DNA of 42,593 nt, from positions 1 through 42,593 of IMG/VR virus record IMGVR_UViG_3300021959_000097, one strand, 5' to 3'. The number at the start of each line of letters is the position of its first letter. The stretch's first letter is position 1. Under the pieces are notes generated by a model that was not told the origin of the DNA, ran no database searches, and saw only the letters and a list, made by a program, of their open reading frames with translations. Below are positions 17 through 31,300 of the stretch, piece by piece. Source of the DNA: a virus. A program made the position numbers and the translations under genes.

Positions 17-46
17 CCTTTACACTATTAGTAAGATCTAAAGATC

Positions 47-199
47 TTATGCGTTTTCGCTTGCGCTCAACGCATTTTTCTTCTTTCTTACTTTATATAT
101 ATATGAACACAACAACTGCGAAGCAGTTTTGTTAGCATCATGTAGATAGTAGAGCCACAATTCGCCCGTTGCCGGGCGAATTGGTTTGTTGAGCTTCAT
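47..199 (-). CDS. possible small protein, 50 aa, unknown
   Basis: The minus-strand ATG at 199-197 opens a 50-codon frame ending in TAA at 49-47. The protein begins MKLNKPIRPATGELWLYYLH and ends in a basic stretch (VRKKK) followed by NALSASENA. The composition is plausible for a soluble phage protein: aromatic core residues, a Lys/Arg cluster and no membrane segment. There is no strong Shine-Dalgarno; a GGTG lies about 13 nt upstream. Codons 5-13 coincide with a perfect 11-bp inverted repeat (158-183), so the region could instead be, or also be, a structured RNA. It lies downstream of the gp46/47 operon in the same orientation. I do not recognise a family. Confidence 0.38.
   Translation of the reverse strand: MKLNKPIRPATGELWLYYLHDANKTASQLLCSYIYKVRKKKNALSASENA
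158..183. repeat. perfect 11-bp inverted repeat (strong hairpin)
   Basis: CAATTCGCCCG and its exact reverse complement CGGGCGAATTG are separated by a 4-nt loop. There is no T-run on either side, so it is not a classical intrinsic terminator in either direction. It sits inside the possible 50-aa ORF. It may be an RNA element, a transcription-attenuating or processing hairpin, or chance. Confidence 0.6.
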
Positions 200-299
200 G
201 TGAGTTAGCGTCACCAAACTGTTAAAGAAGATTATAATTTGTAAATCTTACAATTTTTTCTCAGTTTTCTAAGGAAAAATTGTATAACATACAAATTGC

Positions 300-536
300 A
301 CGGAGGCGGCGTACCGTCAACCCCCTACTTCAGCATTCGCATAATACGCGGAAGGCAGTTGATCCCCAACAGTCGAAATCACTTGCCTTGTGGTTGTATC
401 TTTTTCACAGAGCCACATCTTTCATGCCTTAAGTTAGCATTGTCCTTGCAACGCACCAGTATCTGAACGCACACTGCCCGCACGGCAGGCGTCCTCAAGA
501 TGGGTCGAGCAGCCCCGACCAAACCATGTTGCTATG
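300..536. other. GC-rich island, possible structured RNA or small-ORF region
   Basis: By count, 301-540 is about 53% G+C in an otherwise AT-rich window. Read on the minus strand it contains many short helices. These are GGTCG/CGACC, CTGCC/GGCAG, GCGTTG/CAATGC (one G-U), TGTGG/CCACA, and a three-way arrangement in which AAGGCA/TGCCTT encloses AGT/ACT and GTTG/CAAC. Two minus-strand frames also stay open for over 100 nt (317-418, and a frame without ATG at about 369-530). I see no tRNA, tmRNA, RNase P or group I intron core. The origin may be foreign, given the base composition. Function unknown. Confidence 0.45.
317..418 (-). CDS. possible small protein, 33 aa, unknown
   Basis: The minus-strand ATG at 418-416 is preceded by AAGG at about 8 nt, a usable ribosome-binding site. 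The frame runs 33 codons to a TGA at 319-317. The peptide starts MWLCEKDTTTRQVIS and ends SAYYANAEVGG. It lies wholly in the GC-rich island, and its codon use (CTG, TCC, GCG) differs from that of the surrounding phage genes. It could be a true small gene, a remnant, or an accidental frame in a structured RNA. Confidence 0.33.
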   Translation of the reverse strand: MWLCEKDTTTRQVISTVGDQLPSAYYANAEVGG

Positions 537-986
537 TTAAGCCTTGTTTTTGATATGTCTTTCTAGAAGTGCCTTGCGCAATTTGTCTGAACCGCCTACT
601 CTAACATTGATTATGCCATTGTAATATTCGTCTGATTCCAAAACCCTACGATCAAACTGCTCTCTTGCTTCAAGATAGGACATTTCTCCCCTACCGTGGC
701 ACATGTAAAGTATTTCTCTCGTAAAGTTTTCTGGGCCTAGTGCTTCCACATCAGCCTGTAGCCTATCGGATGAACCCCAATAGTCCTGCCAGTCCGATTC
801 CTTGTGTCCGCGGCGCTTGTTTTTCTTGCCTTTGAGTGGTGGTTTGGTAGTTTTGAATTTGGCTAGTTTCTTGCCTATGTATTTCTTGTTGTTGGTAGTA
901 TTGGTAATGAGATAAACGAAGCCTTCATATTCTTCTGGAATACTGTCAATGATATTGCCTTCAAATGTCCAACTCGGATTCGCCAT
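537..986 (-). CDS. GIY-YIG superfamily nuclease-like protein
   Basis: The 149-aa protein shows the GIY-YIG hallmarks: VYL at residues 24-26, KYIG at 35-38, a Lys/Arg-rich stretch (about 39-62), a candidate catalytic Glu in SYLEAREQF (E106 or E109), and Asn123 in YYNGIINV. GIY-YIG enzymes are single-domain metal-dependent endonucleases. In T4-like phages they occur as free-standing homing-type (Seg-like) or repair nucleases. No extra DNA-binding domain is visible, which suggests a minimal enzyme. It is the last long gene of the minus-strand operon and overlaps the end of the preceding gene by 26 nt. The ATG at 986 keeps the whole nuclease core. Whether it is a homing enzyme or does housekeeping DNA processing cannot be told here. 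Confidence 0.72.
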   Translation of the reverse strand: MANPSWTFEGNIIDSIPEEYEGFVYLITNTTNNKKYIGKKLAKFKTTKPPLKGKKNKRRGHKESDWQDYWGSSDRLQADVEALGPENFTREILYMCHGRGEMSYLEAREQFDRRVLESDEYYNGIINVRVGGSDKLRKALLERHIKNKA

Positions 987-1218: not shown

Positions 1219-1763
1219 AACCAATTTGGTCCAGTAACGAAATACGTTAGAGTAACTCTTTCTCCTTCTATGACAGGATTTACCTTGTGAGGAATGAAAC
1301 TAGGGAATATTATGATTGAACCTTGTTTTTCAAAGCCTTTCGGAGTAAGAGGTCCATTTATAAAAAATTCTAATTCTCCACCTCCGTATGATTCTGGACT
1401 TAGATTCATTATAGTGGTTAGTTTTATATCATACATCTCACCACCAACTGCATCAGTATGCCAATCATACTCTGCCTTGACATCGGATTTATAGGTTGCT
1501 AAATTTACAAAATCAAAATCGCTTGCTGAGAATAGGTTGAAACCAAAAAAATTCTTGTTTATGTCATGCACAATGTTTCGTGCTTTATTCATTTGTTTAA
1601 TAACAGTCCCATAATCACAAAGTTTTACTTCAGAAGTTTTGGTTACATTTTGTGCGCCAACGGGTTTGGCCTGCGAATTTGCATTTTCTACCACTGCATC
1701 ATATAGATCTTGGCATTCACTAGCAGTGTATGCTTGTTCTATACAATAATAGTGTGATTTCAC
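1215..1763 (-). CDS. 2-oxoglutarate/Fe(II)-dependent oxygenase (PKHD/P4H-like)
   Basis: The 182-aa protein has the full double-stranded beta-helix metal triad: H102 and D104 in YDWHTD, and H159 in FIPHKVNP. R169 in GERVTLTYF would bind the 2-oxoglutarate carboxylate. GGGELEFF and GSIIIFPS are typical strand motifs. Such enzymes hydroxylate protein residues, nucleobases or small molecules, and marine T4-like phages often carry one or more; the substrate here is unknown. The start is GTG at 1763, whose GTGA overlaps the gp46 stop, and a GGAG lies about 8 nt upstream. Being sandwiched in the gp46/47 operon suggests early expression and perhaps a nucleic-acid or host-protein target, but that is inference. 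Confidence 0.85.
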   Translation of the reverse strand: MKSHYYCIEQAYTASECQDLYDAVVENANSQAKPVGAQNVTKTSEVKLCDYGTVIKQMNKARNIVHDINKNFFGFNLFSASDFDFVNLATYKSDVKAEYDWHTDAVGGEMYDIKLTTIMNLSPESYGGGELEFFINGPLTPKGFEKQGSIIIFPSFIPHKVNPVIEGERVTLTYFVTGPNWL

Positions 1764-3538
1764 TGTACAATCTCCACATCATTAGAATACGAAGTAAATC
1801 CATTTTCCTTGATAACTTTTAATACGTGATTAACACGCCCTGCCAAATCGTCTCTGTGCGAAATTAGGAACACGTTCTTGTTTCTTTCACGTGTCATCTT
1901 CTTGAGAACCGCAATGGAACTCTCAACACCCGCACTGTCCATACCACTATCAACAAGTTCATCAATGAATAACAAATTAATGCCGTGATATAAACTTTCC
2001 CATACATCACGGAATGCCCAACTCAAGGATAAGATAAGCCTATTTCGTTCTCCTCTGCTGAGGTTGTCGAAGTCTAGGTCCTGCCCCAGTTGTGTAATTG
2101 TGACGGTTAAATCGTTTTGGAATTCCACAATGTGCGGTAATCCTACCTTAGCCAAATAGTATGTTAGACGCTGATTTAGATATGCCAAATTCTGTTCAAT
2201 GATCTTCTTACGCACAAATGAATCCTTGTTTGTAAGCAGTTTGTATAGGAAGTCCTGATGATCCTTGACCTTTGAAAGTTCGTTCAGAGTATCAAAACTA
2301 ACTTCCTGTAGTGCAGTTTCCTTCAAGTCTTCAATCTGTTCCGCATAAGGATTTGTTTCCTCGCTCTTTTTGGCAAGTTCTTTTTGCAAACTCTCGACTG
2401 TATTCCTGTGGTTGTATGCTTCTTCCACACTGTCATACTGCGTCACGGGGCAGTTTTCAAGTTCTCCAATGTCTTTTACAACTTTTGCGTGTTCCTCGTG
2501 CTGCGCCTCGTTGGTAAGGATCTGCTGTGCAGCCTCCTGCAACATTTCTTCCTTCTGCTTCTTAATTTCTTCCTGCTTGTTATCGTGGATTTCCTGACCA
2601 CAGGCATAACACTCGTGTTTGTCAATGGATTCCAATTCTTTTTTCAGTTTGGCAATTATTTTTTCTTGCTTTTCGTTATCAGCAGTTATGCTCGCCATCC
2701 AACGCTGTGCCTCTTCCAACTTTCTTTTCTTGTCATTAAAAGTTTCCCAACACTTGTGTGCCTCAATTTCTGCTTCGATATTAATCTTTTCTAGGACAGC
2801 AATGCTCTGTTTCAGTTCTGCAATAGACTGTTGTTTGCTGTCTTCCCACATTCGCTGTTTGCGCTCAAGGCTTTCTATGTTCTGCTGAATTCTTTCATTA
2901 GATGCCTTGACAGTTTCTATCCTTGTATTCTCAGTTGTAATTGCATCTCTATTGAGTCGCATTTTTTCTTTCAATGCTTCTGCTTTTTCTGAAAGCAAGG
3001 TAATTCCTAATAACTGTTCAATGATCATTCTCTGATCATTTGGCTTGGAAGCAAGGAATGGTTCTGTGTATGTGTTCAGTGCAAGGATGTGCTTGAACAT
3101 GTCATGGCTCATGCCAAACAGTGTTTCAATTTCTTTCTGCGTTTCTCGGCTATCGCCCTGTGCTTCATCCTGATCAGTTGGTTCCTGCTCAGTTCCATTG
3201 ACTGTAAATTTTAATACGTTCGGCTTTCTGCCTCTGTGGATGGAATAATCAATGCCATCCTTTTCAAAATCTATAGTGACCAACATGCCCTTGCCGTTGA
3301 TCTTGTTGATGAGATTATCTCGCTTGATGTTTGTTAGGGCATTTCCATAGATTGCGTAACTGAGTGCATTGACGATAGTGGTTTTACCAGTGCCGTTTCT
3401 GGAACCACTATCATCACCACCCAAGTCAAGGTTTTCTCCTAACACGAGTGTTAGTTCTCCCTTGTCAAAGTCAATGGCCTGGGTCTGATTACCCACGCTC
3501 ATAAAATTCTTAACCGTAATATTTTTAATTTTTATCAT
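1760..3538 (-). CDS. 46: gp46-like recombination endonuclease subunit (Rad50/SMC ATPase)
   Basis: The 592-aa protein matches T4 gp46 (about 560 aa). It has a Walker A P-loop with GSRNGTGKTT at residues 45-54, and long coiled-coil arms on either side of a zinc hook CYAC (C310, C313). Near residue 490 it has the ABC signature LSRGERNRL, then Walker B (LLFIDEL, about 518) and the switch His in LISHRDD. With gp47 it forms the Mre11/Rad50-type complex that resects DNA ends for recombination-dependent replication and host DNA breakdown. Its ATG overlaps the gp47 stop as ATGA (3535-3538), so the two subunits are translationally coupled. No key motif is missing. Confidence 0.96.
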   Translation of the reverse strand: MIKIKNITVKNFMSVGNQTQAIDFDKGELTLVLGENLDLGGDDSGSRNGTGKTTIVNALSYAIYGNALTNIKRDNLINKINGKGMLVTIDFEKDGIDYSIHRGRKPNVLKFTVNGTEQEPTDQDEAQGDSRETQKEIETLFGMSHDMFKHILALNTYTEPFLASKPNDQRMIIEQLLGITLLSEKAEALKEKMRLNRDAITTENTRIETVKASNERIQQNIESLERKQRMWEDSKQQSIAELKQSIAVLEKINIEAEIEAHKCWETFNDKKRKLEEAQRWMASITADNEKQEKIIAKLKKELESIDKHECYACGQEIHDNKQEEIKKQKEEMLQEAAQQILTNEAQHEEHAKVVKDIGELENCPVTQYDSVEEAYNHRNTVESLQKELAKKSEETNPYAEQIEDLKETALQEVSFDTLNELSKVKDHQDFLYKLLTNKDSFVRKKIIEQNLAYLNQRLTYYLAKVGLPHIVEFQNDLTVTITQLGQDLDFDNLSRGERNRLILSLSWAFRDVWESLYHGINLLFIDELVDSGMDSAGVESSIAVLKKMTRERNKNVFLISHRDDLAGRVNHVLKVIKENGFTSYSNDVEIVQ

Positions 3539-4545
3539 AGGTCTCGATAAATCTCCGTAAGCATACGCTTGTCGTATGTCTCGCTGTCTAACTGTTCTAT
3601 TTGATTCAACACAATGGTATCAACGCTTTCAAATGAAACATCAATGGGATCAATGTTGCTCTCTATTTCCACCTTTTCAGGAATCAGCATTAATTCACGC
3701 AATTTAAACTGCGGAATGAACTGTTCCTTGATGAAGTTTGCTTCTTCAAATGTAATCTGCACGTCAATCGTTACTCGGGCATGCATCTTTTCTCTAAGAT
3801 GATCCTCGGGTTTTTCCAGCAGTTGGCTCAGTTTAAACGTTCTATACACAGGTTGATCGGGCCAAGTCTTGTATTCAGGCTTGCCACCCCACTCCAGGAA
3901 CATCATTCCCCTGTCATCATCACCAGCATCCGCGTAGTTGTGCGGAAACGCATTACCAATGTAGGTAACGTTTCCTTTTGTTTGCCTTTGATGGAAGTGT
4001 CCTGAGAACACATATTCTTGATTTACAAAATGATTGGCCTGTAGTTCTCCGTGGTCCGGCATTTCTACCATGGCATTCATCTTGAAGTATGGCAGTTCAA
4101 AGTGTCCAAACACGTATCTTGATTTAATGTCCCTAACTTTTTTCCACTCTTCACCTACCAACCAAGGCAACAGTGTAACATCACCTTCTGTTAGTTGTTC
4201 AGTAATAGGAACGATATTAGGAAACAGTCTCATGAACTCAATACTGTTAATTTCACGCTTATCCTTGTAGAACAAGTCATGGTTACCAACCATGAAATAT
4301 GTTTTTTCAAATGTTTCGTTTAGTCTTTCTAGATTAGAAACTGTATAGTTCATTGTGCTGACATCTGTGGTCGCACGGTTATGGTGCCAGTCTCCTAAAA
4401 ATATACAGGTCTCAGCACCAGCGGCTTTTGCTTCCTCGCAAAACCATTTAACAAAATCTTCACAATCTATGTTGTGTGTCCTGCTACCACTCTTCATACC
4501 AAAATGAATGTCTGTGAAGCAGGCTGCTTTCTTAAATAACGGCAT
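3535..4545 (-). CDS. 47: gp47-like recombination endonuclease subunit (Mre11 nuclease)
   Basis: The 336-aa protein has nearly the length of T4 gp47 (339 aa) and carries all five metallophosphoesterase motifs. These are FTDIH (D12, H14), FLGDWHH (D52, H54/H55), VGNHD (N88, H89, D90), FGHFELP (H148) and SGHFHQR (H183, H185). They bind the two Mn ions of the exonuclease/endonuclease site. It partners with gp46 to process double-strand ends. An AAGGAG Shine-Dalgarno lies just upstream of the ATG at 4545, and a sigma70-type promoter (4563-4591) lies about 20 nt further upstream. This gene can therefore be transcribed independently of gp55. Confidence 0.96.
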   Translation of the reverse strand: MPLFKKAACFTDIHFGMKSGSRTHNIDCEDFVKWFCEEAKAAGAETCIFLGDWHHNRATTDVSTMNYTVSNLERLNETFEKTYFMVGNHDLFYKDKREINSIEFMRLFPNIVPITEQLTEGDVTLLPWLVGEEWKKVRDIKSRYVFGHFELPYFKMNAMVEMPDHGELQANHFVNQEYVFSGHFHQRQTKGNVTYIGNAFPHNYADAGDDDRGMMFLEWGGKPEYKTWPDQPVYRTFKLSQLLEKPEDHLREKMHARVTIDVQITFEEANFIKEQFIPQFKLRELMLIPEKVEIESNIDPIDVSFESVDTIVLNQIEQLDSETYDKRMLTEIYRDL

Positions 4546-4562: not shown

Positions 4563-4591
4563 ATTGTAACGGATTTAATGATAAAAGTCAA
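4563..4591 (-). promoter_or_regulatory. sigma70-type promoter for gp47-gp46 operon
   Basis: On the minus strand, TTGACT (4591-4586) and TACAAT (4568-4563) are separated by exactly 17 nt. Each box differs from the consensus at one position. The -35 box overlaps the gp55 stop codon. The expected start point near 4556 would leave a leader of about 10 nt that still includes the gp47 AAGGAG. The match to the host vegetative consensus suggests early transcription by unmodified host polymerase. Confidence 0.65.
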
Positions 4592-5418
4592 GATTTTTTC
4601 TTTTCACCGCGAGGTGCAGTATCTCCATTGTCCCTATCAGCATTTTGGCGTGTCCAACTTGGATTCATTCCATTCATTTCCAATATATCATCTCGGATGT
4701 TTTGGTTGCGCTTTTCGATATTGATAATTCTAACGAATGAATTGGTTACTGCTGCGGTGTAATATGCGAATGGATTCTGTGATTTGGATTCATCAAACTG
4801 CAATCCAATCTGCGCCAACTGTAGAATGGCCTGTCCCTTCATCTCATCGTTATAGGTATAGCCTCTCACGTTACCACGTGTTGCGTATCTATCACATAAC
4901 TTCATCCACATCAGTGCAAGTTTGTTAGTTGCCTTGCCTACCTTTGGATTAAAGCATCCGTTTTCCATACCACCTTCCCAATGGCTCTTGCCCACGCAGA
5001 TTAGGTTGTCCTTCTCATCAAACTTCCAATGCTGGAAAGGTGGAAAGTTTACCTTGACGTGGCTATCAGCAGTATTCTTTTTGGTTTTCTTCCTTGTAAG
5101 ATCCTCCGGAATGTGTTCAAATGTCATAATACGAAAGACTAGATCCTCTTTCTGCATTTTTCGATAGTCTATTTCAAATTGCTTTGCGGGAATTTTCTTG
5201 CCAGCAGCCTCAACTGCTGCTTCGTGTGCTTGTTTAGATAACCTTGAAGCACGGTTCCTTTTTGCTTCTGCAATGGTTCTTATGTTAATTTTTTCAAGAC
5301 TTGGCAGGATAACATCGTATTGATGATATTCAGGGTCAACATAGGAGCAAAATGTGTTTTTACTGCGGTGTATCTCTGCCAATAGGTCCTTGTTTGTTAG
5401 ATATTTGATTTTTTGCAT
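4588..5418 (-). CDS. 55: gp55-like late-transcription sigma factor, extended form
   Basis: The 276-aa protein has two blocks that align with T4 gp55 (185 aa). The N-terminal YLTNKDLLAEI corresponds to T4 YVNNKELLQAI. The sigma region-2-like block at about 162-245 includes GYTYNDEMKGQAI and LQFDESKSQNPFAYYTAAV, against T4 FDETKYKNPHAYITQA. gp55 replaces host sigma70 and recognises the TATAAATA late box. About 135 extra residues (roughly 25-160) separate the two blocks. The C-terminus (TAPRGEKKKS) lacks the hydrophobic SLDFLYE-type clamp-binding tail that T4 gp55 uses for activation by the gp45 sliding clamp. An AGGAG sits about 14 nt before the ATG. It is divergent from the late genes it should activate. 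Confidence 0.85.
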   Translation of the reverse strand: MQKIKYLTNKDLLAEIHRSKNTFCSYVDPEYHQYDVILPSLEKINIRTIAEAKRNRASRLSKQAHEAAVEAAGKKIPAKQFEIDYRKMQKEDLVFRIMTFEHIPEDLTRKKTKKNTADSHVKVNFPPFQHWKFDEKDNLICVGKSHWEGGMENGCFNPKVGKATNKLALMWMKLCDRYATRGNVRGYTYNDEMKGQAILQLAQIGLQFDESKSQNPFAYYTAAVTNSFVRIINIEKRNQNIRDDILEMNGMNPSWTRQNADRDNGDTAPRGEKKKS

Positions 5419-14500: not shown

Positions 14501-14944
14501 GCCGCAATTAAATCAATAAGTGACGAAATCATTTATCATCCTGTAAAATACAAAGTATTGTTTGGTAGTTCAGCAGAAAATAAACTACAGGCACAATTCA
14601 AAGTAGTCAAAAATCCATCAAGGGTGATTAATGACAATGATTTAAAAGTTAGAATTGTTAATGCCATCAATGAATTTTTTGATATTAGTAATTGGGATTT
14701 CGGTGATAGATTTTATTTGAGCGAACTTACAACTTATGTTGTTAATTCTGTTTCACCGGATATTACAAATTTTGTTATAGTTCCAAGACAGGCAACCCAA
14801 GTGTTTGGTAGTCTTTTTGAAATACAAAGTAAACCCGACGAGATTTTTGTAAGTGGCGCAAAAGTTGATGATATAGAAATTGTATCAAGTATTACTGCTG
14901 CTGAGATAAAGGTCGGTACGAATTCAGTAGTGAGTAATACATAA
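11543..14944 (+). CDS. 6: gp6-like baseplate wedge protein
   Basis: The 1133-aa protein carries the T4 gp6/baseplate-J signature. At the N-terminus are LRRVIITYIRENYPEDFNDY, EYLALIDAVAFLGQSLSFRV and RENFIELAERKESILRIARM. A central conserved stretch includes ITGEDYNLAPLGSSQNILKV. The C-terminal dimerisation-type region has KYKVLFGSSAENKLQAQF and WDFGDRFYLSELTTYVVNSV. T4 gp6 is about 660 aa, so roughly 470 residues have been added, mostly beta-rich segments at about 450-950. gp6 forms the iris ring that opens on contraction. The stop TAA overlaps the giant gene's ATG by one base. Confidence 0.92.
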   Translation: MSNTSRQNNLILNEDWKRIYQTFRNADFKSYDFENLRRVIITYIRENYPEDFNDYIESSEYLALIDAVAFLGQSLSFRVDLASRENFIELAERKESILRIARMLSYNAKRNVAAKGLLKFVSVNTTESIFDSNGRDLSRQTIRWNDATNSNWAEQFISVLNAAMSDNTEFGRSQGSATIQSVPTEQYRFRTTTVDVPIFTYTKTIAGRAMPFELVSTSFKDSEELYEEAPYPGNQLGFVYRQDGQGPASANTGFYMMFKQGSLELADFNIEVPTTNEKINVVSENINNDDVWLFALNSLGVQTEQWTKVSNVVGNNIAYNSLVGDIKNIYAIDTRENDKIDLVFADGVYGNLPKGSFRTYYRVSNGLTYSISPNEMKGINISVSYRNRAGDQHTLQIGLELQTSVTNASAAETADAIRQNAPATYYTQNRMITGEDYNLAPLGSSQNILKVKAINRTSSGISRNFDIVDASGKYSSINVFGDDGYIYKEESERALSFKFTNRTDIINFIKRNVEPVFSDTDVYNFYLTKFDKILFSEENTIWNSVTNETNRGTGYFFNNVDLGLLKVGLYATNNLKYLYSGSNVKFVAPTGQAFKNGELVTLDENDIEQTTYVWTKVVSVSGDGTNAGRGALTTGFGPIVFNDKIPTGAIAKRIIPKFVTDLSNSLESEIVNEIFNGLNFGLRFDDVTSSWKIIERQNLNLTGPFSLGKAGDITSNNIDSSWIVAFVKDNDQYIVRIRKLDYVFGSVEQNRFYFDKNEKAYNNVTGLLAKDTVKVLGINTQSSSLTPLKNDFPFEISDTITFDDGYESTKEIKLAFKDSDDDGVIDNPESFTSVVGEDLDLNYLFFQERTDEYGSTVYDLVNTTTTPFKIVQRESLVNINDETNGQLIYFYDSAEDRVKRVNKTTNTLVLESSYKAAIGRDKLKFQYTHAASEDRRIDPSTTNIIDLFILTRSYDTTYRNWLAGATTTQPEEPSSDELRINFGGNLAAIKSISDEIIYHPVKYKVLFGSSAENKLQAQFKVVKNPSRVINDNDLKVRIVNAINEFFDISNWDFGDRFYLSELTTYVVNSVSPDITNFVIVPRQATQVFGSLFEIQSKPDEIFVSGAKVDDIEIVSSITAAEIKVGTNSVVSNT

Positions 14945-17900
14945 TGGCAGATAAGAAATTTCCAGTCAGTCAGTTACCGATTAGAAAAAGTGAAAATTTT
15001 TTACCACAAACTTTCCAAACGGAAAACAATAAAAAATTCCTTTCAGGAGTTGTAGATCCGTTAATCCAACCAGGCGTCGTTGAAAAGACTACAGGATATA
15101 TTGGAAAGCGTTACGGAAAAACCTTTTCAGGAAATGACATTTACCTCGATGACGATGAAACATTAAGAAGTAAGTATCAACTTGAGCCGGGTGTAGTTGT
15201 AGATAAAGATCAAAAAATAAAAAAGTTTTGGGATTATCTTGATTTAAAAAATATTTTAAATTACTTTGGCAACTACAATGAACGAGACGATAAGGTAACG
15301 GATCAAGAACACTACTCTTGGAATCCTCCAATTGACTGGGATAAGTTTGTAAATTATAGAGAATACTATTGGGCACCATCAGGACCTCCTTCGGTAGCAA
15401 TTCAAGGACAAGCATCAACTGTTGTTAGCACGTATAAAGTTAAAACAGGAATAGGATCAACCTGGGTATTAACACCAGACGGTTTTACAAACAATCCTAA
15501 TATTACTTTGTTCCGTGGTCAAACATACGTGTTTGACGTAAATTCTCCCAAGGAAGGATTTACTGTAAGAACAAACTATGACACTGGATCAATTTTATAC
15601 AATACAGAGAAAATTTATTTTCCTGGCGAACTAGCGGTATTTGATGGAAAACTTTGGAGAGCAAAAGTAGAAATTTCTCCAGCAGACGGAAGCACGATTG
15701 ATATAGATTCTCAGGATTGGGAGTTATTAGATAGTTCGGCATCTTTACAAAGTTTGTTGTACAATGATGGAATAGAAAATAATGGAGTTAAGGTAGGCAA
15801 ACTTACATTTACAGTCCCACAAAATGCTCCAGATATTTTGTACTATCAAAGTGATATAGATCCTAACAGATTAGGACAATTTATTATCGCTGACATTGAT
15901 TCGAACACATTTATAGATGTGCAAAAAGATATCATTGGTAAGAAAAATTACAAGTCTAGTAATAATATAGAATTTACAAATGGTATGACAGTTGAATTTA
16001 CAGGAACGGTAATACCAGAACAGTATGCAAGTGATAGATGGTTAGTTGAGGGAGTTGGCGATCAAATTAAATTAAAGAGATTTTCAGATCTTGTTCCGCC
16101 TAGTGTTACTGCAAATACCCCTGAAATTTTATTTGATAATGAAGGGTTTGATACACAGCCCTTTGATGATGCAACACAGTATCCAGGTTCTAAGGATTAT
16201 ATAACAATCAATAGGAGCAGCAGAGATTCAAATCCTTGGTCGAGATATAATAGATGGTTCCACAGATCTGTTTTAGAATATGCATATAAGTCGAGAGGTG
16301 AAGACTTCCCAGCAGAAGAAGCGCATCGAGCGAAAAGACCAATTATTGAATTTTCACCTGACATTAAACTTTTTAATCACGGAACTGTTGCAAAACAAAC
16401 TGTAGATTATATTGATGATTTTACAACAGATGTATTTTCCACAGTAGAAGGAAGTACGGGGTATAACATTGATGGAGAATTTTTATTCCAGGGTGCTAGA
16501 GTATTAGTTACTGCTGACAATGATTCGTTAGCAAATAATAAGATCTATGTTGTAAATTTTATTACACATAACGGCAGAAGACAAATTAATTTAAGAGAAT
16601 CTAATGATACACTATCTGTACTAGATGAGTGTGTCCTAATTAGACGTGGTGAAAAAAATGCTGGTAAGATGTTCCACTATAATGGAACCAACTGGGTTAG
16701 AAGTCAAGAAAAGTTATCAGTAAATCAAGAACCATTGTTCGATGGGTTTGATGAAAACGGAATTAGTTTTGATGACGGTGATACATATCCTGTAAGCACA
16801 TTTGCGGGAAATAAAATTTTTAGTTACAAGGTTGGCAACAGTATTAATGACACCGAATTAGGATTCAGTCTATCATATCTAAATATCGAAAATGTTGGAG
16901 ATATAGTTTTTAACTGGAATTGGGATATAGACAGTTTTAATTACACAATTAATCAACAGGAAAATACGGTACGTGTTAATTCTGGTTATTATAAAATTAA
17001 TAACGAGTATGCTAACGGTTGGATTAAAACAGATAACACATACATTCAACCGATCGTACAAACAGTAGTTGTTGAAAATGAAACTAGCGAAGTCGAATTT
17101 ACAGCAGTTTCTTGGTCATCAATTACTGAAACAGCAAAAATTATTTTTTATAGAAATGGTAAAAAACTAGCCAACACTTACACAAGAATAGCCGGAAGAT
17201 TTATATTTGATGATGTAATTTTTTCTAAGGGTGATGCCATCGTAATTAAAATTGTTGATGATGTAGTGCCAGATAGAGGATACTATGAAATCCCTGTAGG
17301 TCTTGAGAAAAACCCACTTAATAATAACCTTACTGAATTTACTCTAGGACAAGCATCTGATCATGTAGGTACGTCTCTTGAATTTAATGATGAATTTAAA
17401 GGATCGTTGCCTGGATCATCTAATCTGCGTGATCTAAAAGATTATGAAGTTCATGCTAAGAGATTTTTGAAACACAGTGGAATATCAGCAAAAGCAATTG
17501 CATTGTTATGTGACAAAGAAAATAATATCATTAAATCTTTACAATATGCTAAGAAACAATACAGCATATTCAAAGACAATTTTATTAAGAAAGCAACGGA
17601 GTTGCCATTTAATAATAATATTAACGATTTTGTTGATGAAATTATTGCGGACCTAACAAGAACAAAAAGCATTAACAGTCCTTTTGCGGACAGCGACATG
17701 ATTGGTTCTGGTGCTTTTACTCCATTAGATTATGTTGTAGAAGATACAGGAATTAAAACCTTTACGCTTTCTAGCAATTTTGATTTAGAAACACTAAGCA
17801 GAAAAGCAGTCTATGTTTATCTAAATGGAAGACAATTGTTAAATGGTGCCGAATATTACTTTGATAGTAACTTTGGTTTTGTGACACTGACCGCTGAGTT

Positions 17901-20900
17901 GGCAGAAGGAGATAGAATACAGATTAGAGAATACGTTTCGACTTCTTACAATCACATACCACCGACACCGTCATCTATGGGACTATACAAAAAATATACT
18001 CCTATGAAATTTTTAGATGACACCTACAAAGAATCGAGACAGGTAATACAAGGGCACGATGGAAGCATACAATTAGCATATGATGATTTTAGAGACGATT
18101 TATTACTAGAATTAGAATATAGAATTTACAATAATATTAAAAAACAGTACAGTGAAGAAGTTTTTGATATAGATGCAACTTTGGGTGGTTACTATGGTAA
18201 TGCCATCTTTACCAAAAAAGAATTTGATAATGTTGCGATACAAGAATTTTTAAAATGGGTGGCGAACACCAACCTTGCATATACCACTAACGATTATTTT
18301 GTAGAAAACGAAACATTTACCTACACTTACAGTAACATGACCGATCCAACAGGAACTCAAAACCTTCCTGGATGGTGGAGAGGTGTTTATAAATGGTTCT
18401 ATGATACCGATAGACCACACCGCTGTCCTTGGGAATGTTTAGGATTTTCTGAAAAGCCTACATGGTGGGAAGAGGAATATGGTCCAGCACCATACACTAG
18501 CGGTAACCTAATACTTTGGGAAGATATAAGAGATGGTATTATTAGACAGGGCGATAGAGCGGGTAGATACGACCGTTATGCTAGAACATCCATAATATCT
18601 CATATTCCAGTAAATGCTGACGGGGAATTATTAAGTCCGTTGGATTCGGGTTTAGCCGGAAACTTTGTTTTAATTAATAACAGAGGAAGTTTTCTTCTTG
18701 GAGACATTTCACCTGTTGAATATGCATGGCGTGCTAGTTCCGAAGGTCCATTTGGAGCAATTATTGCACTGTGTTTGTTAAGACCTTTTGAATTTATAAT
18801 TACAAATTTTAATAAAGATCAAGTTAAACGAAATAGAATAAATCAAATTGTTAATAAATCTACCAATGTATTTTTGTCATCATCGGATTTAGAATTGCCA
18901 ATTGCAGGCGAAAGCCAATCAGTTGGACTGTCATCATATATTTCTTCTTACATAAAATCACAGGGTAGAAGTATTAGTGATGCACAAGAAATGCTTACAA
19001 ATATAGATGTGAAATTGTCATCAAGACTAAGTGGTTTTGTAGATAAGGAACAGCAAAAATATTTGTTAGATAGCAAGAATCCGAATAGTTCTAGTTCAAG
19101 CATATTCATACCGTCAGAAAATTATGATATTGTCTTTAATGTAAGCACTCCTATTGCAAGTGTAACCTATAGCGGTGTTATATTTGAAAAGACAGATAGA
19201 GGTTGGATCGTTTCAGGATATGATGATATAAATCCATATTTTAATTACGTACCTGTAGTTCCTAACCAAAAAGATCCAGTAATAGAAGTGGGCGGAGTCA
19301 CTGAAAACTTTACACAATGGGAAGAAAATAAAACTTACAGCAATGGTGCCATTATTCAATACAGAAATGATTATTATAGAGCAAATAAATCACATACTGG
19401 AACAGATCAGTTTGACTCGAGTAACTGGTCTAAACTTGCTAAGTTACCTTCGATTGGTGCAGTAACGGCACAGAGAAGACGAAACTTTAATCAATTCTCA
19501 CAAAGGCAATTGAGCTATGGAACTACCTTAAACAGTGTGCAAGAGGTAGTAGATTTCTTGCTAGGATATCAAGAATATCTAAAAACACAAGGATTTGTTT
19601 TTGAAAATTATGATCCTCAAAATAGTGTTGTACAAGATTTCGTTACAGCAGCAAAAGAATTTATGTTCTGGACTAGAAATGCATGGGCTCCGGGTGCCTT
19701 ACTTACTGTAAGTCCAGGAGCAGATAAAATGGAGATCAATATACCTGTAGGGGTTGCTGATAATCTACTGGATAATTTCTATGATTACAATGTGCTTAGA
19801 AGTGATGGACAGCCGTTAAACAATGAAAATATAAGTGTAACTAGAGATTTTCAATCATTTAAAATTAGTACGACAAATACCAACCAAGGAATTTATTACC
19901 TTAAAGTAAATTATGTACTAAAAGAACATATCTCTATATTTGATGATAAAACTGTATTCAATGATATTTTATTTGATAAAACAACTGGTTACAGACAGGA
20001 AAGAATTAAAACACAAGGATTCCGCACAGTAGATTGGGATGGAGACTATACATCACCCGGATTCTTATTTGATAATGTTAATATAGAATTTTGGGTTCCA
20101 TTTACTGATTATAGGCTAGGAGATATTGTTTCTTACAAACAATATAATTATACCAGCGTTAGAAATCACGCAGGCACTGAAACCTTTCAGGAAGATAACT
20201 GGACAAGATTAGATTCAGAACCTTCAAAACAATTAATACCTAATTATGATTATAGAATTAATCAAATGGAAGACTACTTTGATGTGGCGTCTTCTGGACT
20301 AGGAAAAAGCCAAAGAGATCTTGCAAGACACACTGTTGGTTATCAACAGAGAGAATATTTACAGGCACTAGCAGAAGATCAGGTCACACAGTTTCAGTTA
20401 TACCAAGGATTTATTAGAGAGAAAGGTACCAATAATTCACTCACAAAACTTTTTAATAAAATAGGTAGAGCAGGTAATGCTAGTGTTGAATTATCAGAAG
20501 AATGGGCATTCAAAGTTGGGCAACTTGGAGGAGTAGATCAATCCAGTGCAATTGAATTAAAACTTAATACTGATAGTTTCAAGATAAATCCGCAGCCGAT
20601 TATTGCTGAACATGAAATCGGAGAAACTACTGACAGGTATTACAGAGTTACTCAGGATGATTTTCCTGTAGCACCAATACCATACACAACTAATATAATC
20701 CCAGTTGATAATAAAAACATACCAACAGCCACTGCTGGCTATGTTAAAATTGGACAAACTGAAATAACAGTTAGAAATAGATCAGACATTTTAGATCTAG
20801 ATATTTTCCAAGTAAATGAAAATGATCATATATGGATTACATTTGAAGGACCATCATGGACTGTTTTAAGAGCGAACACATATTACGAATTGCCGTTTGC

Positions 20901-23900
20901 GCAGATTACAGATGATCAAAACAATATTACAGTAACGTTTAATAAGAGACATAATTTAGCAGTTGGCGACCTGCTTGGAATAAAGGATATTGATCAACTT
21001 GATGGATTCCACGAAATAACTGAAGTGACTCCTTTAACAGTTAAGTTTGTCGTTGATGAAAATCTTACAAACTTCTCATTTGAAGGAAGTACAATTAGGT
21101 ATCCAATACTTTTAAGTCAGGCTAGATTTGACGAGTATAAAAATATTGACCCAACAACATTTGCTCTTCTATCAGAAGGTAGTAAATTATTTGTTGATAA
21201 AAATTCAGATGACAGATGGGAAGTAGTAGAAAAGAAAAAACAATATACGGTCAAGAAAATAACAGACTATGGTCTTTCAGCACCCATTGGAACAGGTTAT
21301 AAGGTAGCATACAGTGATACTTTAAAACAAGTATTTGCTTCAATTCCAACCAGTGGCGTTGTTGTTGTTTATATTGAAACTACAACAGGGCTGGGCGTCA
21401 AACAAATTCTACAACCAGAAACAGCATTACAAACTATTGCTGAAGGGTCCTTTGGTAAGGAAATTGCCATAAGTTCAGATAACAGATGGGCAATAGTTGG
21501 AACTCCAAATGCGGGCGGAGTGCTCAGCAGATATAAAGGAATCTATCAACCTACTAACAATTATATTTTAGGAGATATTGTTCTTTACGAAAGCCAATTA
21601 TGGAAAGCAAACAAAAACATACTCGGCGATGGTTCAACCATAAATGTTTATACAGAAGATTGGGATATTGCAACTAACATAGAAGCAGATTCGGAAGGTT
21701 CGAGTTTAGGGTATGCTAATCAAGGAATGATTACCATATATGAATACGGTGCCCAACAATGGAATCTCGTAAAAACATTTTTAAGTCCGAGACCAAACGA
21801 AAATCAATTGTTCGGAAGCAAGATTGCAATTAGCAAAAATGGTGATGATTATCGTTTAGCAGTATCTGCTCCTGGAGCAAACAACGAAACTGGTACTGTA
21901 TATTTGTTTAATTACAATTCTACAGATGGCTGGACACACGATGTCAATCAAAATTACAAAGGATTATTTGATGCCTCAGCATTTTATCCTAAGGGTAGCA
22001 TAGTTTGGTTTGGTGGCAACCTGTGGCAAGCACTAGCAGACAATAATGGCGATGGAAGTTCAATAACTGATTTGTCAAACGATTGGGTAAGATTAAATCC
22101 TGTAAGCACTAGATCATCATTACCTCAGAGTATTGCACTTGAAGATGATGGAAGTACCCTAGAAGCAAATCTAGTAGGTACAGAACAAATAAGCGAACTG
22201 GTACAGAACGGAGATAAGTTTGGTAGTTCAGTAGCAATGAATTATGACGGAAGTGTTCTTGTAATAGGAGCACCGTTCAGTGAAGGCCAATATTTTAGTA
22301 ATTACAGAGGGTTATGGAAGCCTGACGTAGAATACGTTGAAGGTGATGTCGTAAAATACCAGAATGGATATCATAGATTAGACGATAGAAGAATTAAGAA
22401 CTCGGTTGATTTTTCGGAAGGTTTCACATATACCATTAAGGAATTAGGAACGACTGACTGGAATGCAGTAGCAGGAACCATAGGACTAACATATGCTCCT
22501 GGCGATGTTGTAGTTGCAATAGGTAATGGATTTGCTGGAACCGGAATAGCGATTGAAACCACAGATTCAACAGCAAGAAGTTATAATGAAAAACCAGATG
22601 AAGGATTTCCTTGGAATAATGTTGGTGACAGCACAAGTCCTATAACAGGTAAGATCTTTGTTTATAGAAAGGATGCAAACAATTTATATAAACTTGATCA
22701 AACTATAACTGCTGAAACACTCAATGATATCAGCGATTTGGATCCAAGAGAAACAATAAGCACAGGAGATCAGTTCGGTCATGCAATTGCTATAGATTAT
22801 ACAGGTAACACTCTAATAGTAAGTAGTCCTAAGGCAGATGTAAATTACCAGAATCAAGGAAGTGTATATCTATTTGAACTTGACACAGACAGCTCAGTAG
22901 ATCAATTTAGACTAAGACAAAAACTTGAAAGTTATGACAGATATCCAAATGAATTCTTTGGACAGAGTGTGTTCATCACTCCAAACACTGAGAAGGTAAT
23001 TGTCGGAGCCAATAATAGTCCATTTACATCACCTACAATATTTGACAATAGTCAAACTACGTTTGATAACGGAAGATCCTCTTTCATAAGTTATGGCGGG
23101 TATGCTGGTAGTGTTTATGTATTTGAAAGAAAGCAGGATAGATATCTCCTTGCAGAAAAATTAGAGGATGATCTGTCTCCTAATGAATCATTTGGTTGGA
23201 GCGTGTCGTGTTCAGCAGATAAAGTTATTGTTGGTTCCCCAGACTATATTGCTCCAGCACTTCATGGTGTAGATCTTGCGTTCGAAGGTGATAAAATCGG
23301 TCAAGTTAGAATGTTTTCTAAAGCGTTAGGAATTAATTCACTAGAAGTTTTAGAATCTCAATCAGACAGTGTTGCAATAGACTTGGTAAAAAGAATTGCC
23401 TTGTATTCTAATGACACTGACAACAAGATTCAGGACATTGAAATTCTTGATCCTGCAAAACTAAAAATACTTGCAACGGCTGAAAAAGAAATAGAATATA
23501 AAACTCCATATGATCCTGCAATATATTCTGTGGGTACTGACGATGCAGTGGTAGATAGTTCAATATCATGGAAAGAAAAGAATGTTGGTAAATTATGGTG
23601 GAACATTTCAAACGCTAAATGGTTGGATTATGAACAAGGCTCAACATCATACAGACTTGCTAACTGGGGTAGATTAGCAACTGGTGCGACTATAGACATA
23701 TACGAATGGGTGGAATCCAAGTTATTACCAAGCGAATGGTCAGCAATTGCAGATACAAACGAAGGATTACCTCTGGGAATTTCTGGACAGCCTTTATATC
23801 CAGAAGATACGGTATATTCAATAAAAGAACTTTATAATAGTAATACTGGACAATTAACAGAAACACGTTATTACTACTGGGTTAAGAATAAAGTAAATGT

Positions 23901-26900
23901 TCCTAACAATTCTAGTAGAACAATAAGCGCATCATCGGTTGCATCATTGATTGAAAATCCTCAATCTCTAGGTAACACATTTATTGCATTAGCATCCAGT
24001 AATCAATTTTTCTTCTACAATTATAAGAGCATTGTTTCGGAAGATAATACTATATTGAATATTGAATTCTATAATGGCAGAGATCAATTAAATCCAATTC
24101 ATAATGAATATCAATTATTGACAGAAGGCAGTGCAGGAGATGTACCTGCTCTTAAATTAGAAAACAAAATGATTGACAGTTTGATTGGGTTTGATAAACA
24201 AGGAAACAGAGTACCAGATCCAGACTTACCTGAGAAACAACAGTACGGAGTATTGTATAGACCAAGACAGAGCATGTTTATTGAAAGGAAAAAAATACTT
24301 AAAACCGTTGTTACTAATATTAATAAAATATTAGAAAAAGAACCGTTCGCCAATAGTATTAATTTTCAAACTCTAAATCTTTTTGATGAACAACCTTCTG
24401 CTAATTTAAATTTATATGATGCTGAGGTAGATACATTTATTGATCTAGAAACTGTTGGTACCGTAAGAGTAAGAGTTGCAAAAGTATCAGCAAATATTAT
24501 CGACGGAGCAATTAATTCAATGGATATTATTGATCCAGGATTTGGGTATCGAGTAGCACCAACGATTGAGTTTGAAGGGAACGGTGTTGGTGCAGTTGCC
24601 ACGACTAGAATTGATAACCAAGGAAGAGTCATAGGAGTAACCATAGTTAATGAAGGTAAAAAATATACTTTTGTTCAATCAAAAGTTAGAAACTTTTCTG
24701 TGTTGGTTAAAACAGATTCAACTGCTCAAAATTATTGGTCAATATACGCCTGGGATGACGTAAGAAAAACTTTCTTTAGAAGTGCTTCACAATCATTTGA
24801 CACTAGAAGATACTGGAGTTATGCTAATTGGTGGTTAGAAGGCTATGGTGACACAACAATAATTAACAAAGAAATATTAAGCATCTACCAAGAACCAACT
24901 ATAGTAACAGATGTCGGAGACTTGATAAGAATTAGGGAATACGGTTCAGGAGGATGGGCCGTATTAGAAAAAATTATAGATACACCTGATTTTTCAACTG
25001 CATATAAATTAGTTGGAAGAGAAAACGGTACAATACAGTTATCGCAAGGATTATATGATACAGACATAAGTGGCATTGGTTATGACAATGTTAAATCATT
25101 TGATACTGGATTCTACGATAGAGAAGTTGCAATAGAATTAAGAAATATTCTAAAGGCAGTAAAAGAAGATATCTTCATTGGAGATTATACTGCTGAATGG
25201 AATAAATTATTCTTTACCTGTGTTAGATTTGTATTCAAGGAACAGACCTATGTTGATTGGGCATTCAAAACTAGTTTCTTAAATGCGGTTCATAACGTTG
25301 GGGAACTACAACAGCCTGTTAATTATAGAAATGATAGTCTTGAAAGTTATCTTGATTATATTAATGAGGTTAAACCTTATAGAACAACGGTTAGAGAATA
25401 TGTAAGCAAATACAATAAAATTGAAAATGCTAATAATGCAGTTTCTGATTTTGACTTACCACCAGTTTATAGTGATGTGGAAGGATCCATTATCACAGTA
25501 AATGAAAACAATGAAATTATAAGCACCTACCCATACAGATACTGGTTGGATAATAAGGGATATTCTATAGTTTCTATTAACGTTAGTAACGAAGGATCCG
25601 GATACACATCTCCACCTAAGGTAATAATTGAAGGCAACGCTTCTAAAACAGCAGTTGCAAAAGCATACATTTCAAATGGAAAAGTAAGTGCAGTAAGAAT
25701 TTTGGATAAAGGAAAGGGTTATATAACCTTACCCACAGTAACACTAGTTGGTGGTAATGGCAGTAACACAGACATTGCCAAGGCAAGTGCAGTTTTAGGT
25801 GACGGTTTAGCAAGAACATTTGATGTGGGTGTTAAATTCGATAGATTAAGCAAAGAAGGCTTGTATAATAACTTCAATTATACCCAAACATTTACTGCAA
25901 CCGGAGGAACTGCAACTTTTGAACTAGCATATGCACCTACAAATGACAAGAGTAAAATCAGCATAACAATAAATGAACAATTGGTATTGCCGGATGAATA
26001 TAAAACAAGTTTCTATACAACATCAACAGATGATTTTAAAATTCTTAAAGGAAAAATTATCTTTAATGATGCACCAATAGTTGGTGATATTATCAAGGTT
26101 ACCTATGATAAGAATGACGAATTATTAGATAGCGTTAATAGAATAGAAAAATATTATAATCCTTCGTCCGGAATGAAAGGCCGAGACTTAAATCAGTTAA
26201 TGACTGGTATAGATTTTGGTGGAGTTCAGGTACAAGGTACTACTTTTGATGTTACGGGAGGATGGGATGCCCTACCGTGGTTCACTGACAGTTGGGATAG
26301 CGTTGAAGCGGCAAGTGACTACTATGTGGTAGTTGATGGAAGTACAACTTTTATAACATTGCCATACATTCCTGCTGATGGACAAATTCTTAACATATAC
26401 CTAAAGCGTGCTGGTGAAGCAGTACTACCAACAATTGATAATCTACAATACAGCGAAAGCGTGAAGAATCCACCAGTAGTCAGAATTGACGATCCATATT
26501 TTGAATCAGGTTCGCCAGCAATACCAGCAGTACCAGGCGTACCAGCAGATGCAGAATACAACAATGGTGCATTAATTTCCGAGAACAATGGTACAGTGTT
26601 TGACAGAGCCCTAACTGTAAACGGATTGAAACTGGTTGTTGCAGGAGCAGTAGGCGGACAACTAGCAGTACCAGATGAATGGGCAAAGAAAACTGCAAGA
26701 ACATTTGAATTAATGACTGACCCTAACGGCGCTGGCATTAACACTACACATCAACGCAATTTTCTTAAAACACTAAAAGGTGACGCAGGAACATATCACG
26801 CAGGAATACCTACAGTACAAAGAGTTGGCTATGGCGGCGGAAGTACATACACACCTAACTGGTTAGAAGATGCTAACGTGGCAAGTTATGCAGGACTACA

Positions 26901-28396: not shown

Positions 28397-31300
28397 ATGG
28401 CCGTTGGTCGAATTTCGGGTCAGCTCTTAAAGTCCAATCTTCTGCGTAATGGAGCAGACTTGGCTTTTGAGACTAACCTGTTATACATTGATGTTAATAA
28501 CAACAGGATCGGCATAAAAACCGCTACTCCGCAGTATCCATTAGACGTAAATGGAACAGCACGTACAGTAAATGCAGAAGTTACAGGACAATTAGATGTG
28601 GGCAATGTCAGAGTATCTGGCAACACAATCAGTACCACAGCACCACAATTAAATTTTTCAGCCGCTGATGGCATCATTTACAACAATAAGATATTTGTTA
28701 ATGATTTAATAATCGATGGAAATTCCATCACAGCAACAGATTCTAATCAAAATTTTGAAATAGTAACAAGCGGAACGGGTATCGTCGAAGTACACGGTAA
28801 CACCAGAGTAAACGGAAATATTCACGCAACTGGTAATATTAGAGCAGATGGTAACATTACCATTGGAGATTCAGACACAGATTCAATCACGATCAATGCT
28901 GATATCACATCTAATTTAACACCAGATCAATCAGACACTTATAATTTAGGTACACCTACAAAACGTTGGAACAATGCATATGCCAACAACTTAATTGTAG
29001 ATAATCTAACACTTTCTGGCAACATCACAGTACAAGGACTTGACTTAACAGCACGTCCTGGAAAGGTGATATATGTTGCAACCAACGGCGATGATGCTAA
29101 ATCAGGAACGCACCAAAACGATCCTTATGCTTCTATTGAACAAGCATTATCAGTGGCAGTGGCAGGAGATCACATTTACATATATCCAGGCACATACACA
29201 GAAGATTTTCCTTTGGTTGTTCCAACAGGAGTTTCAATCAGAGGTGACGGAATAAGAGCAGTAACAATTCAACCCAGTGCCTTAACAAACAGTCAAGATG
29301 CTTTCATTCTTAATGGTGAAGTGACGATCGAAGATTTAACAGTTACAGGATTTTATTACAACAGTGTTGCTAATACAGGACACGCATTTAGATTTAATTC
29401 AACAGGTGCAGATGATTCAACAGGCTTTCAGATCAGTTCAAGATCACCTTACATTAGAAACGTATCTGTAATCACACAAGGTTCAATAACCACAGCACAA
29501 GATCCAAGAGGATTTGGATCCGGAGATGCTGGTAAAGGTGCTCTATTAGATGGTGCAGTAGCAACTCCGGCTTCAAACGAAGCAAGTTGTTTGTTTCAAA
29601 ATGCAACATTTATAACACCAGGTGTGGATGCAATCACATTAACAAACGGTGTGCGTATTGAATGGTTAAACTCGTTCACTTATTTTGCGGCAAGAAGTAT
29701 CTACGCAGTAGATGGTGTATCTGGTTTAGCAGAAGATGGAAAAACACAATTAAGAGTTTCTGGATTTACAGGTACACCTATAGCACCTGGACACGTGATC
29801 ACATATTATGATGTGGATGGTGTTACTGTATTAGGTACCGGCACAGTTGAATCTGTGGACAATGGAAAAATTATTATAGATGGTAAGTCAACTGGTTTTG
29901 CTTTACCACCTGAAACCACTGGCAAACAAATAACTGCCAATGGTGATGCACAATTAGATACCAATGTTAAGAAGTTTGGACAGGCTAGTTTGCTGTTGGA
30001 TGGAATAGGAGATAGTGCTTCTATTTCAACCACAGCAGACTTTGGATTCGGCACTGGTAATTTCACTATTGAATTCTGGGCATACGCAACTCAATTACAA
30101 TCTACAACACTGTTTGATTTTAGAAACAATCAGTCGATTGAATATTCTTTGATGTTGTATCTCACAAACAACGCACCAAAATTATATGTAAATGGTGCTA
30201 ACGTTATTACAGGTACTCAAGGATTTAATTTAAACACTTGGACACATTGTTCAATTGTGAGAAATGGATCAACAGTTACAATGTACATTGCTGGACAAAA
30301 TGTTGGAAGTACAACTCTAGCAAATGATTTAGGTGCGGCAAAACCTCTTGTGATGGGTAACAACTATGACAACAACAATGGCTTTATTGGTAACATAGAC
30401 GACTTTGTAATTTACAAAGGTTCAGCAATTAGAACAGCAAACTTTACTCCTCCAACAACAGAGGCTATTGGAAATCCAGACACAGTTTTAGTTTCTAGAT
30501 TTAATGGACCAAATGGATCAACTGTTTTATTAGACACAAACATTGCTGTTCAAGATATTAGATTTTCAACAGGAGCAACAGCAACCAACTTCACATTGGT
30601 TGATTATACAGACTTTGGTGCAGAAGTAAGATCAATAGCATCAGCATCAATCTACGGAACATATGGAGCAGTAGGAGATGGTGTCGGTGTAAAAATGTAT
30701 TTGATATCTCACAATTTTGCCTATATTGGTAACGACTACGAAACAGATAATGATGAAGTTACAGTTATTCAAGCCAATGAAGTGGTTACATCTAACAATG
30801 CTAAAATTTATTATTCATCTGTTGACCATAAAGGTGACTTTAGAGTTGGTGATCAATTTCATGTAAATCAAAATACAGGACAAGTTAACTTTACATCAGC
30901 ATCATTAAACATAGATGTTGATCAAGCACTTACATTTACATCAGGTCCAAATGTTACTGTAATTTCAGGAAATTCAATTGAAACAGGAAATGTAAAATTA
31001 TCAGGCAATGAAATCACAACAACATCTGGAGATTTAGATATTGATTCATTTAATAATCAAATTAATTTTATAGACAATGTAAACATCACAGGAAACTTAG
31101 ATGTTACAGGAGATATCACAATAGGCGGTAATGTTACAATAGGTGACGAAACAACAGATTCAATTAATATCACAGCAGGTATAGGATCAGATATTATTCC
31201 AGCACAAGACAACACATACAACATTGGTTCTGCCACAAAAAGATGGAACACAGTGTTTGCCAATGAAGCACAAATAGATAGTGTTAACATCAGTGGCAAT

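Follow-up and report, generated by a model that had tools for sequence, protein, structure and literature searches.

A large structured noncoding RNA at the end of the gp47-gp46-nuclease operon of uncultured marine T4-like phages

The window, by which we mean the whole stretch of DNA analysed here, is the linear IMG/VR virus record IMGVR_UViG_3300021959_000097, 42,593 nt in length. It carries a minus-strand operon with a late sigma factor, a gp47-like gene and a gp46-like gene, closed by a segE-like gene. The RNA described here lies just past the segE stop codon. The features of the locus are as follows.

4588-5418, minus strand: late sigma factor (PHROGs match)
3535-4545, minus strand: gp47-like gene (PHROGs match)
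1760-3538, minus strand: gp46-like gene (PHROGs match)
537-986, minus strand: gene for a segE-like GIY-YIG endonuclease, immediately upstream of the RNA (Pfam SegE_GIY-YIG, 5.1e-35)
32-536, minus strand: whole RNA gene of type A, about 505 nt (nhmmer and alignments, both ends placed by conservation)
300-536, minus strand: GC-rich island with the 5' domain and the pseudoknotted core

The structural proteins encoded in the window include a T4 gp9/10-like protein and a baseplate-hub-like protein, which identifies the virus as a T4-like myovirus. A close cultured relative was sought and not found, the best gp46 match having 49.5% identity and the best SegE match 67.9%, and the lineage is an uncultured marine one. 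PHROG 447 and many deposited records label the GIY-YIG protein homologous to SegE as 'NAD synthetase', which is probably an annotation error. Elsewhere in the window, the plus strand has at 14944-28221 an open frame of 4,425 aa whose product carries FG-GAP repeats and a carbohydrate-binding module (CBM_5_12); a 1,243-aa lectin-like protein follows at 28397-32128. Both are probably very large tail or fibre proteins.

A sequence-only reading of the window had singled out positions 300-536 as an island of about 53% G+C in an AT-rich background, which the counts bear out. The G+C content is 53.2% in the island against 37.2% for the whole window, and only 8 of the 42,357 windows of 237 nt reach 53.2%, all of them starting at 0-based positions 291-300, so that the island is the sole GC peak at this scale. 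Raised G+C can fit a stable structured RNA gene within an AT-rich genome. Short frames are open in several phases, as that reading had also remarked, yet none is conserved among relatives: the five window ORFs over the RNA are open in 11, 0, 19, 18 and 0 of 68 relatives, a conserved protein frame was sought across these 68 for all five and not found, and the indels among relatives do not preserve frame. The island itself is real, but its limits of 300 and 536 were too narrow, since the conserved RNA continues to about position 32. From the conservation, a noncoding RNA of about 505 nt is predicted on the minus strand from about 536 to 32, and the island makes up its 5' half. Single-sequence folding was ordinary on both strands (z of -0.66 for minus and -0.17 for plus), and the support for structure therefore comes from comparison and not from folding energy.

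Relatives were gathered by a SegE search of IMG/VR, from which the 80 closest loci were kept. Using blastn, the island matched 8 of these 80; further copies were collected by pattern scans and then by profile HMMs of class A (window-like) and class B. With the two HMMs the RNA was present at 75 of the 80 closest segE loci, and the other five segE contigs stop 1 to 93 nt past the segE match. The SegE search and the pattern scans together gave at least 367 sequences, and among the matches listed 349 of 367 scored 50 bits or more; loci below 50 bits were excluded from the count of genomic context. L131 was dropped as a chance match and L081 because it is the window itself. Because several contigs are present under two locus ids, adjacency was counted on distinct RNA sequences, of which there were at least 246 among the matches listed. 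The gene upstream of these 246 was segE in 219 and a PDDEXK nuclease in 6, and 21 had too little upstream DNA. In the six copies without segE (L123, L168, L177, L183, L195 and L215) a PDDEXK_15 nuclease occupies the operon position of segE, which indicates that the RNA keeps the operon end while the nuclease changes. A covariance model of the 3' module (see below) found one copy and no more in each of 13 large records, 98-268 kb in size. The RNA is thus single-copy in the large records searched, sits in a fixed place and is present in almost all examined members of this widespread lineage of marine phages, and for these reasons it is probably important to these viruses.

In L059, L072, L079, L264, L272, L285, L298, L355 and L362 small genes are apparently inserted between segE and the RNA, and these differ between lineages. 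L215 also has, at 729-801 on the minus strand, a near-threshold match to the freshwater-2 RNA (47.8 bits, with a cut-off of 49.9).

The fold of the core was assessed on alignment A2, in which 138 type A copies were thinned by similarity to 69, with 66 distinct sequences counted. Its elements in the window are listed below with the support for each.

390-416, minus strand: hairpin GTGG/CCAC with the conserved loop CTCTGTGAAAAAG (helix 1; 4 of 5 pairs change on both sides)
353-388, minus strand: stem AGGCA/TGCCT plus TGAT/ATCA, with the 5' strand of pseudoknot K in its loop (helix 2; 93.9% paired)
219-372, minus strand: pseudoknot K, CTGTTG (372-367) with TAACAG (224-219) (helix 3; 94.2% paired, 5 of 6 pairs change on both sides)
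309-349, minus strand: pseudoknot M, GCGTA (349-345) with TACGC (313-309) (helix 4; 97.6% paired, 3 of 5 pairs change on both sides)
227-331, minus strand: long-range helix GAAG (331-328) with CTTC (230-227) (helix 5; 99.2% paired)
302-325, minus strand: hairpin stem GGGGG (325-321) with CCTCC (306-302), crossed by M (helix 6; 99.7% paired)
234-300, minus strand: variable AT-rich hairpin region, longer in the window than in most close relatives

Over the 66 distinct sequences, the 45 proposed pairs were formed in 93.4% of cells, as compared with 41.6-53.5% when the structure was slid along the alignment. The structure includes two pseudoknots, and 24 of the 45 pairs change on both sides. Cells with changes on both sides numbered 349 against 130 in shuffled alignments, and none of 500 shuffles reached 349; by the measure of further pair types, the core was equalled by 23 of 500 shuffles. 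An enumeration of helices over all column pairs, made independently of the proposed structure, placed the same helices near the top. The best-supported helices in these comparisons are CTGTTG/TAACAG, GAAG/CTTC, GCGTA/TACGC and the GTGG/CCAC hairpin. At one pair of the GAAG/CTTC helix the types GC, AU, CG and UA all occur, and the helix also has AGAG, CAAG, GGAA and TGAG versions. The TACGC strand of pseudoknot M sits inside the loop of the GGGGG/CCTCC hairpin, and the loop CTCTGnGAAAAAG of the GTGG/CCAC hairpin is nearly fixed among type A sequences. The complementary segments AAGGCA and TGCCTT that had been pointed out beforehand are present on the plus strand (354-359 with 390-395) and covary in relatives; on the minus strand they form the helix that closes the stem with the pseudoknotted loop. 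In the variable hairpin region, the inserts of L006, L105 and L159 are of different sequence and size.

The 5' domain precedes the core and was assessed on 37 distinct sequences.

448-532, minus strand: 5' domain, in which P1 (532-528/452-448) encloses P2 (520-514/509-503) and P3 (502-499/457-454)
424-440, minus strand: small hairpin ATGC/GCAT (440-437 with 427-424), 98% paired, with a change from GC to AU in 12 sequences

P1 and P2 are 100% paired and P3 is 97.9% paired, with changes on both sides in each. The variable hairpin of this domain (its helix 4) is 42.9% paired, its drawn position being wrong for most sequences. As a whole the domain gave mixed measures. Its number of pairs with changes on both sides was equalled by 36 of 500 shuffles and its further pair types by 499 of 500, and sliding the structure by +1 yielded more cells with changes on both sides than the proposed structure (57 vs 36). 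Compensatory changes beyond the controls are clear in the core, with the mixed measures just given for the 5' domain. Together with the homologues and the absence of a conserved frame, the covarying pairs uphold the suggestion of a phage noncoding RNA; the contrary pattern, a protein frame kept by synonymous changes with zero covariation, was tested for and did not appear. The locus almost certainly encodes a conserved structured noncoding RNA. A recently acquired fragment, the other suggestion, is not supported, because the same RNA lies at the same site across hundreds of loci of the virus group.

The rest of the RNA is a 3' module common to all classes (alignment A3), and there are at least three kinds of 5' module (types A, B and C). 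The type A HMM matches 141 of 181 type B loci, and does so in its 3' half. The elements of the module in the window are listed below.

194-205, minus strand: repeat loop 1, ACTC-ACATGAA-G
158-183, minus strand: GNRA-capped hairpin between the repeat loops (helix 7; 88.7% paired, one pair changes on both sides)
136-147, minus strand: repeat loop 2, ATCT-ACATGAT-G
114-128, minus strand: hairpin AACTGC/GCAGTT (covariation scan)
50-74, minus strand: hairpin TGCGTT-GA-GC-GCAA-GC-GAA-AACGCA with apposed GA steps, present in types A, B and C
32-49, minus strand: 3'-terminal hairpin TAAGATC-TTTA-GATCTTA with no T-run after it, the strongest covariation of the scan

The Rfam family Polynucleobacter-1 (RF01718) is matched by the first 141 nt of the RNA in L025 and L031, at 67.4 and 71.8 bits (cut-off 37). 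This part sits at the same position after segE, and the remainder of both RNAs aligns with the 3' half of the window RNA, that is, with the common 3' module. Model R1 finds the 3' module in the L025 record, with both L025 and L031 included in the alignment of R1. In the window, RF01718 had zero match at its gathering score and, in positions 1-1000, at E up to 10. No Rfam family matched the window 5' module or the one type B locus tested. Matches in the window at relaxed Rfam thresholds were low-scoring and mostly of AT-rich miRNA type, and were discounted. No description of this RNA was found in the literature covered, most subscription journals lying outside it. We regard it as a new class among the large structured RNAs of phages, linked to an orphan Rfam motif.

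Relatives outside the IMG/VR loci were sought in cellular and isolate genomes. The 3'-module pattern gave 0 stretches in cellular genome contigs. The core-hairpin pattern gave 10, of which 7 had no HMM match and 3 scored 16.5-19.4 bits; model R1 found nothing in them better than E 1.9, and given these weak scores all ten were treated as chance. Among cultured phages, blastn of INPHARED with the window RNA and with type A2, type B and type C copies gave only short weak matches; in 7 isolate records R1 had zero matches at E≤0.001, and its best score across ten isolate loci did not exceed 11.9 bits.

The gene order sigma, gp47, gp46 also occurs in jumbo phages, in which ORF-poor stretches lie slightly further on. 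In cultured jumbo phages, regions of about 0.8-1.5 kb with few or no ORFs lie near gp46 at L376:7017-8530, L379:6640-7442 and L373:6411-7424, and it is possible that they are large noncoding RNAs. The stretch of Pseudomonas phage PAC2, of the PA5oct group, holds ATGTTG-CTCTGGTAGAAAAAGAT-CAAC, which resembles the type A hairpin. A degenerate hairpin pattern, widened after the PAC2 sequence was seen, occurs once in 11 isolate genomes, at the PAC2 stretch and on the expected strand, and the HMM score of the PAC2 hairpin was 2.7 bits as compared with 0.0 for the best of 300 shuffles. The 3' module was not found in the PAC2 stretch. A distant homologue may exist in the cultured PA5oct group, but owing to the widening of the pattern after the fact and the missing 3' module this homology is only a lead. 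If true, it would move the question into a laboratory phage. We tentatively propose, with the odds somewhat against it, that T4-like and jumbo phages share an ancient core RNA gene that has been overlooked. Its lineages would be type A, type B, Polynucleobacter-1 (type C) and the ORF-poor gap that follows gp46 in the PA5oct group, its anchor would be the late sigma-gp47-gp46-nuclease locus, and in the marine lineages its 3' module would present two identical lineage-specific binding loops. In phage PA5oct this gap lies at 75,700-77,200 of record MK797984.

The two repeat loops of the 3' module carry the same seven letters in 115 of 122 distinct modules, while shuffling gave a mean of 39 and a maximum of 53. 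The letters vary by lineage, with ACATGAA, AGATGAT, GAATAAT, GGATGAG and others, and a complement of the loops within the same RNA is absent in 119 of the 122 modules. Loops that are equal within an RNA and change between lineages fit a partner that is recognised by sequence and has two sites or is dimeric. This makes the twin loops the strongest hint of function, namely two equal sites for one partner. In the mechanism we propose, the RNA, the single-copy last gene of the sigma-gp47-gp46-nuclease operon, would be transcribed with this early/middle operon and, in some relatives, from a promoter of its own, and would be a stable RNA ending at the 3' hairpins. The pseudoknotted core would set the spacing of the two identical loops, making a rigid scaffold that acts in trans, and two copies of the loop NNAUGAW would be displayed on either side of the GNRA-type hairpin. 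The partner may be a dimeric protein or one RNA bound in two copies, for instance a host RNA. The co-varying loop pair offers a direct experimental handle on the partner. That the RNA is such a two-site trans-acting scaffold is a little short of an even chance when judged by itself. We put the probability of the reading as a whole, a structured operon-end RNA whose twin loops point to a scaffold acting in trans, at roughly 0.7.

A cis-acting role is the first alternative to be weighed, in which the RNA is the structured 3'-UTR of the gp47-gp46-nuclease mRNA and protects the message, sets its end or tunes expression. In most loci the RNA begins within tens of nucleotides of the nuclease stop codon. 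It shares the strand of the operon and closes it, and in most loci an obvious promoter for the RNA itself is lacking. By a strict pattern, a promoter-like site is absent in 316 of the 325 loci tested, so many copies may be only part of the operon mRNA. The pattern occurs in nine of the 325. Three of these are a weaker type A site, and the six type B loci L062, L064, L071, L283, L294 and L359 have a TTGACA-N17-TATACT-type site between segE and the RNA. A promoter-like site directly before the RNA in six loci speaks against a 3'-UTR, as do the whole genes that in some loci apparently separate the RNA from segE (distances of 201-284 nt). Moreover, about 500 nt with two pseudoknots far exceed what a stability tail needs, and the two co-varying loops suggest a trans partner. 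A cis-acting tail is rather unlikely, though together with the RNA multimer considered next it is a main rival of the scaffold reading. Two covarying hairpins lie at the 3' end of the RNA, the last without a T-run, for which reason it may not be a terminator; the end may instead be a processed or protected one, judging from the sequence. In several loci the RNA is followed by the sequence TATAAATA/AATAAATA, which we take to be a late-promoter-like motif.

An RNA-only multimer or cage of the GOLLD or ROOL kind, suggested by analogy, appears improbable. Like those RNAs, the present one is phage-borne, about 0.5 kb long and has more than one pseudoknot, with a conserved 3' region and an exchangeable 5' region; according to a report on GOLLD, its 3' region is conserved and its 5' region less so (PMC12286853). 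The Rfam models of GOLLD and ROOL, however, gave zero match, and zero tRNA genes lie beside the RNA in the window or in the 11 related loci scanned. The repeat loops are not palindromes in every lineage, which makes symmetric kissing through them unlikely.

Much less probable still is a single mobile element made up of segE and the RNA, in which the RNA would serve the homing nuclease as its ribozyme or guide. segE is directly upstream in 219 of the 225 distinct listed copies with usable upstream DNA, but the other 6 have the unrelated PDDEXK_15 nuclease at the same operon place, so that the RNA follows the place and not SegE. Extra genes can also separate the two, and the examined isolate records with SegE homologues are without such an RNA. 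Finally, the view that the island is coding DNA or a recent acquisition whose complementarity is fortuitous, for which the high G+C, the short open frames and the ordinary folding energy might be cited, is contradicted by the covariation, the frame-breaking indels and the fixed site in hundreds of loci, and its probability is negligible.

Three known kinds of RNA were tried and rejected, namely tmRNA, tRNA and group I intron. ARAGORN found neither tmRNA nor tRNA in the window or in 11 related loci, and an Rfam tmRNA match at the RNA is absent. For a group I intron there was zero Rfam intron match at E up to 10, and the RNA lies past the segE stop codon, inside no gene.

Large RNAs seldom contain several pseudoknots, and for most of those that do no function has been assigned. 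GOLLD and ROOL resemble the RNA of the operon end in being large phage RNAs with pseudoknots to which no function has been assigned; the present RNA differs in lying at the end of a recombination-nuclease operon and not in a tRNA cluster, and it is shorter than GOLLD. The two-piece tmRNA of Melnitz-like marine phages (PMC9004378) is likewise a structured RNA in marine T4-like phages. Vibriophage ICP1 makes an abundant noncoding transcript of about 800 nt by the lysis cluster (PMC7567579); by that description it is, like the present RNA, large, ORF-less and phage-encoded, with its role unassigned. Polynucleobacter-1 was tabulated in 2010 as a probably cis-regulatory motif of Burkholderiales, fresh water and estuary (PMC2864571). 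While listed there as a Burkholderiales motif, in the marine phage contigs it opens a much longer RNA at the operon end, and this orphan Rfam motif thereby acquires an extended RNA, a genomic setting and relatives numbering in the hundreds.
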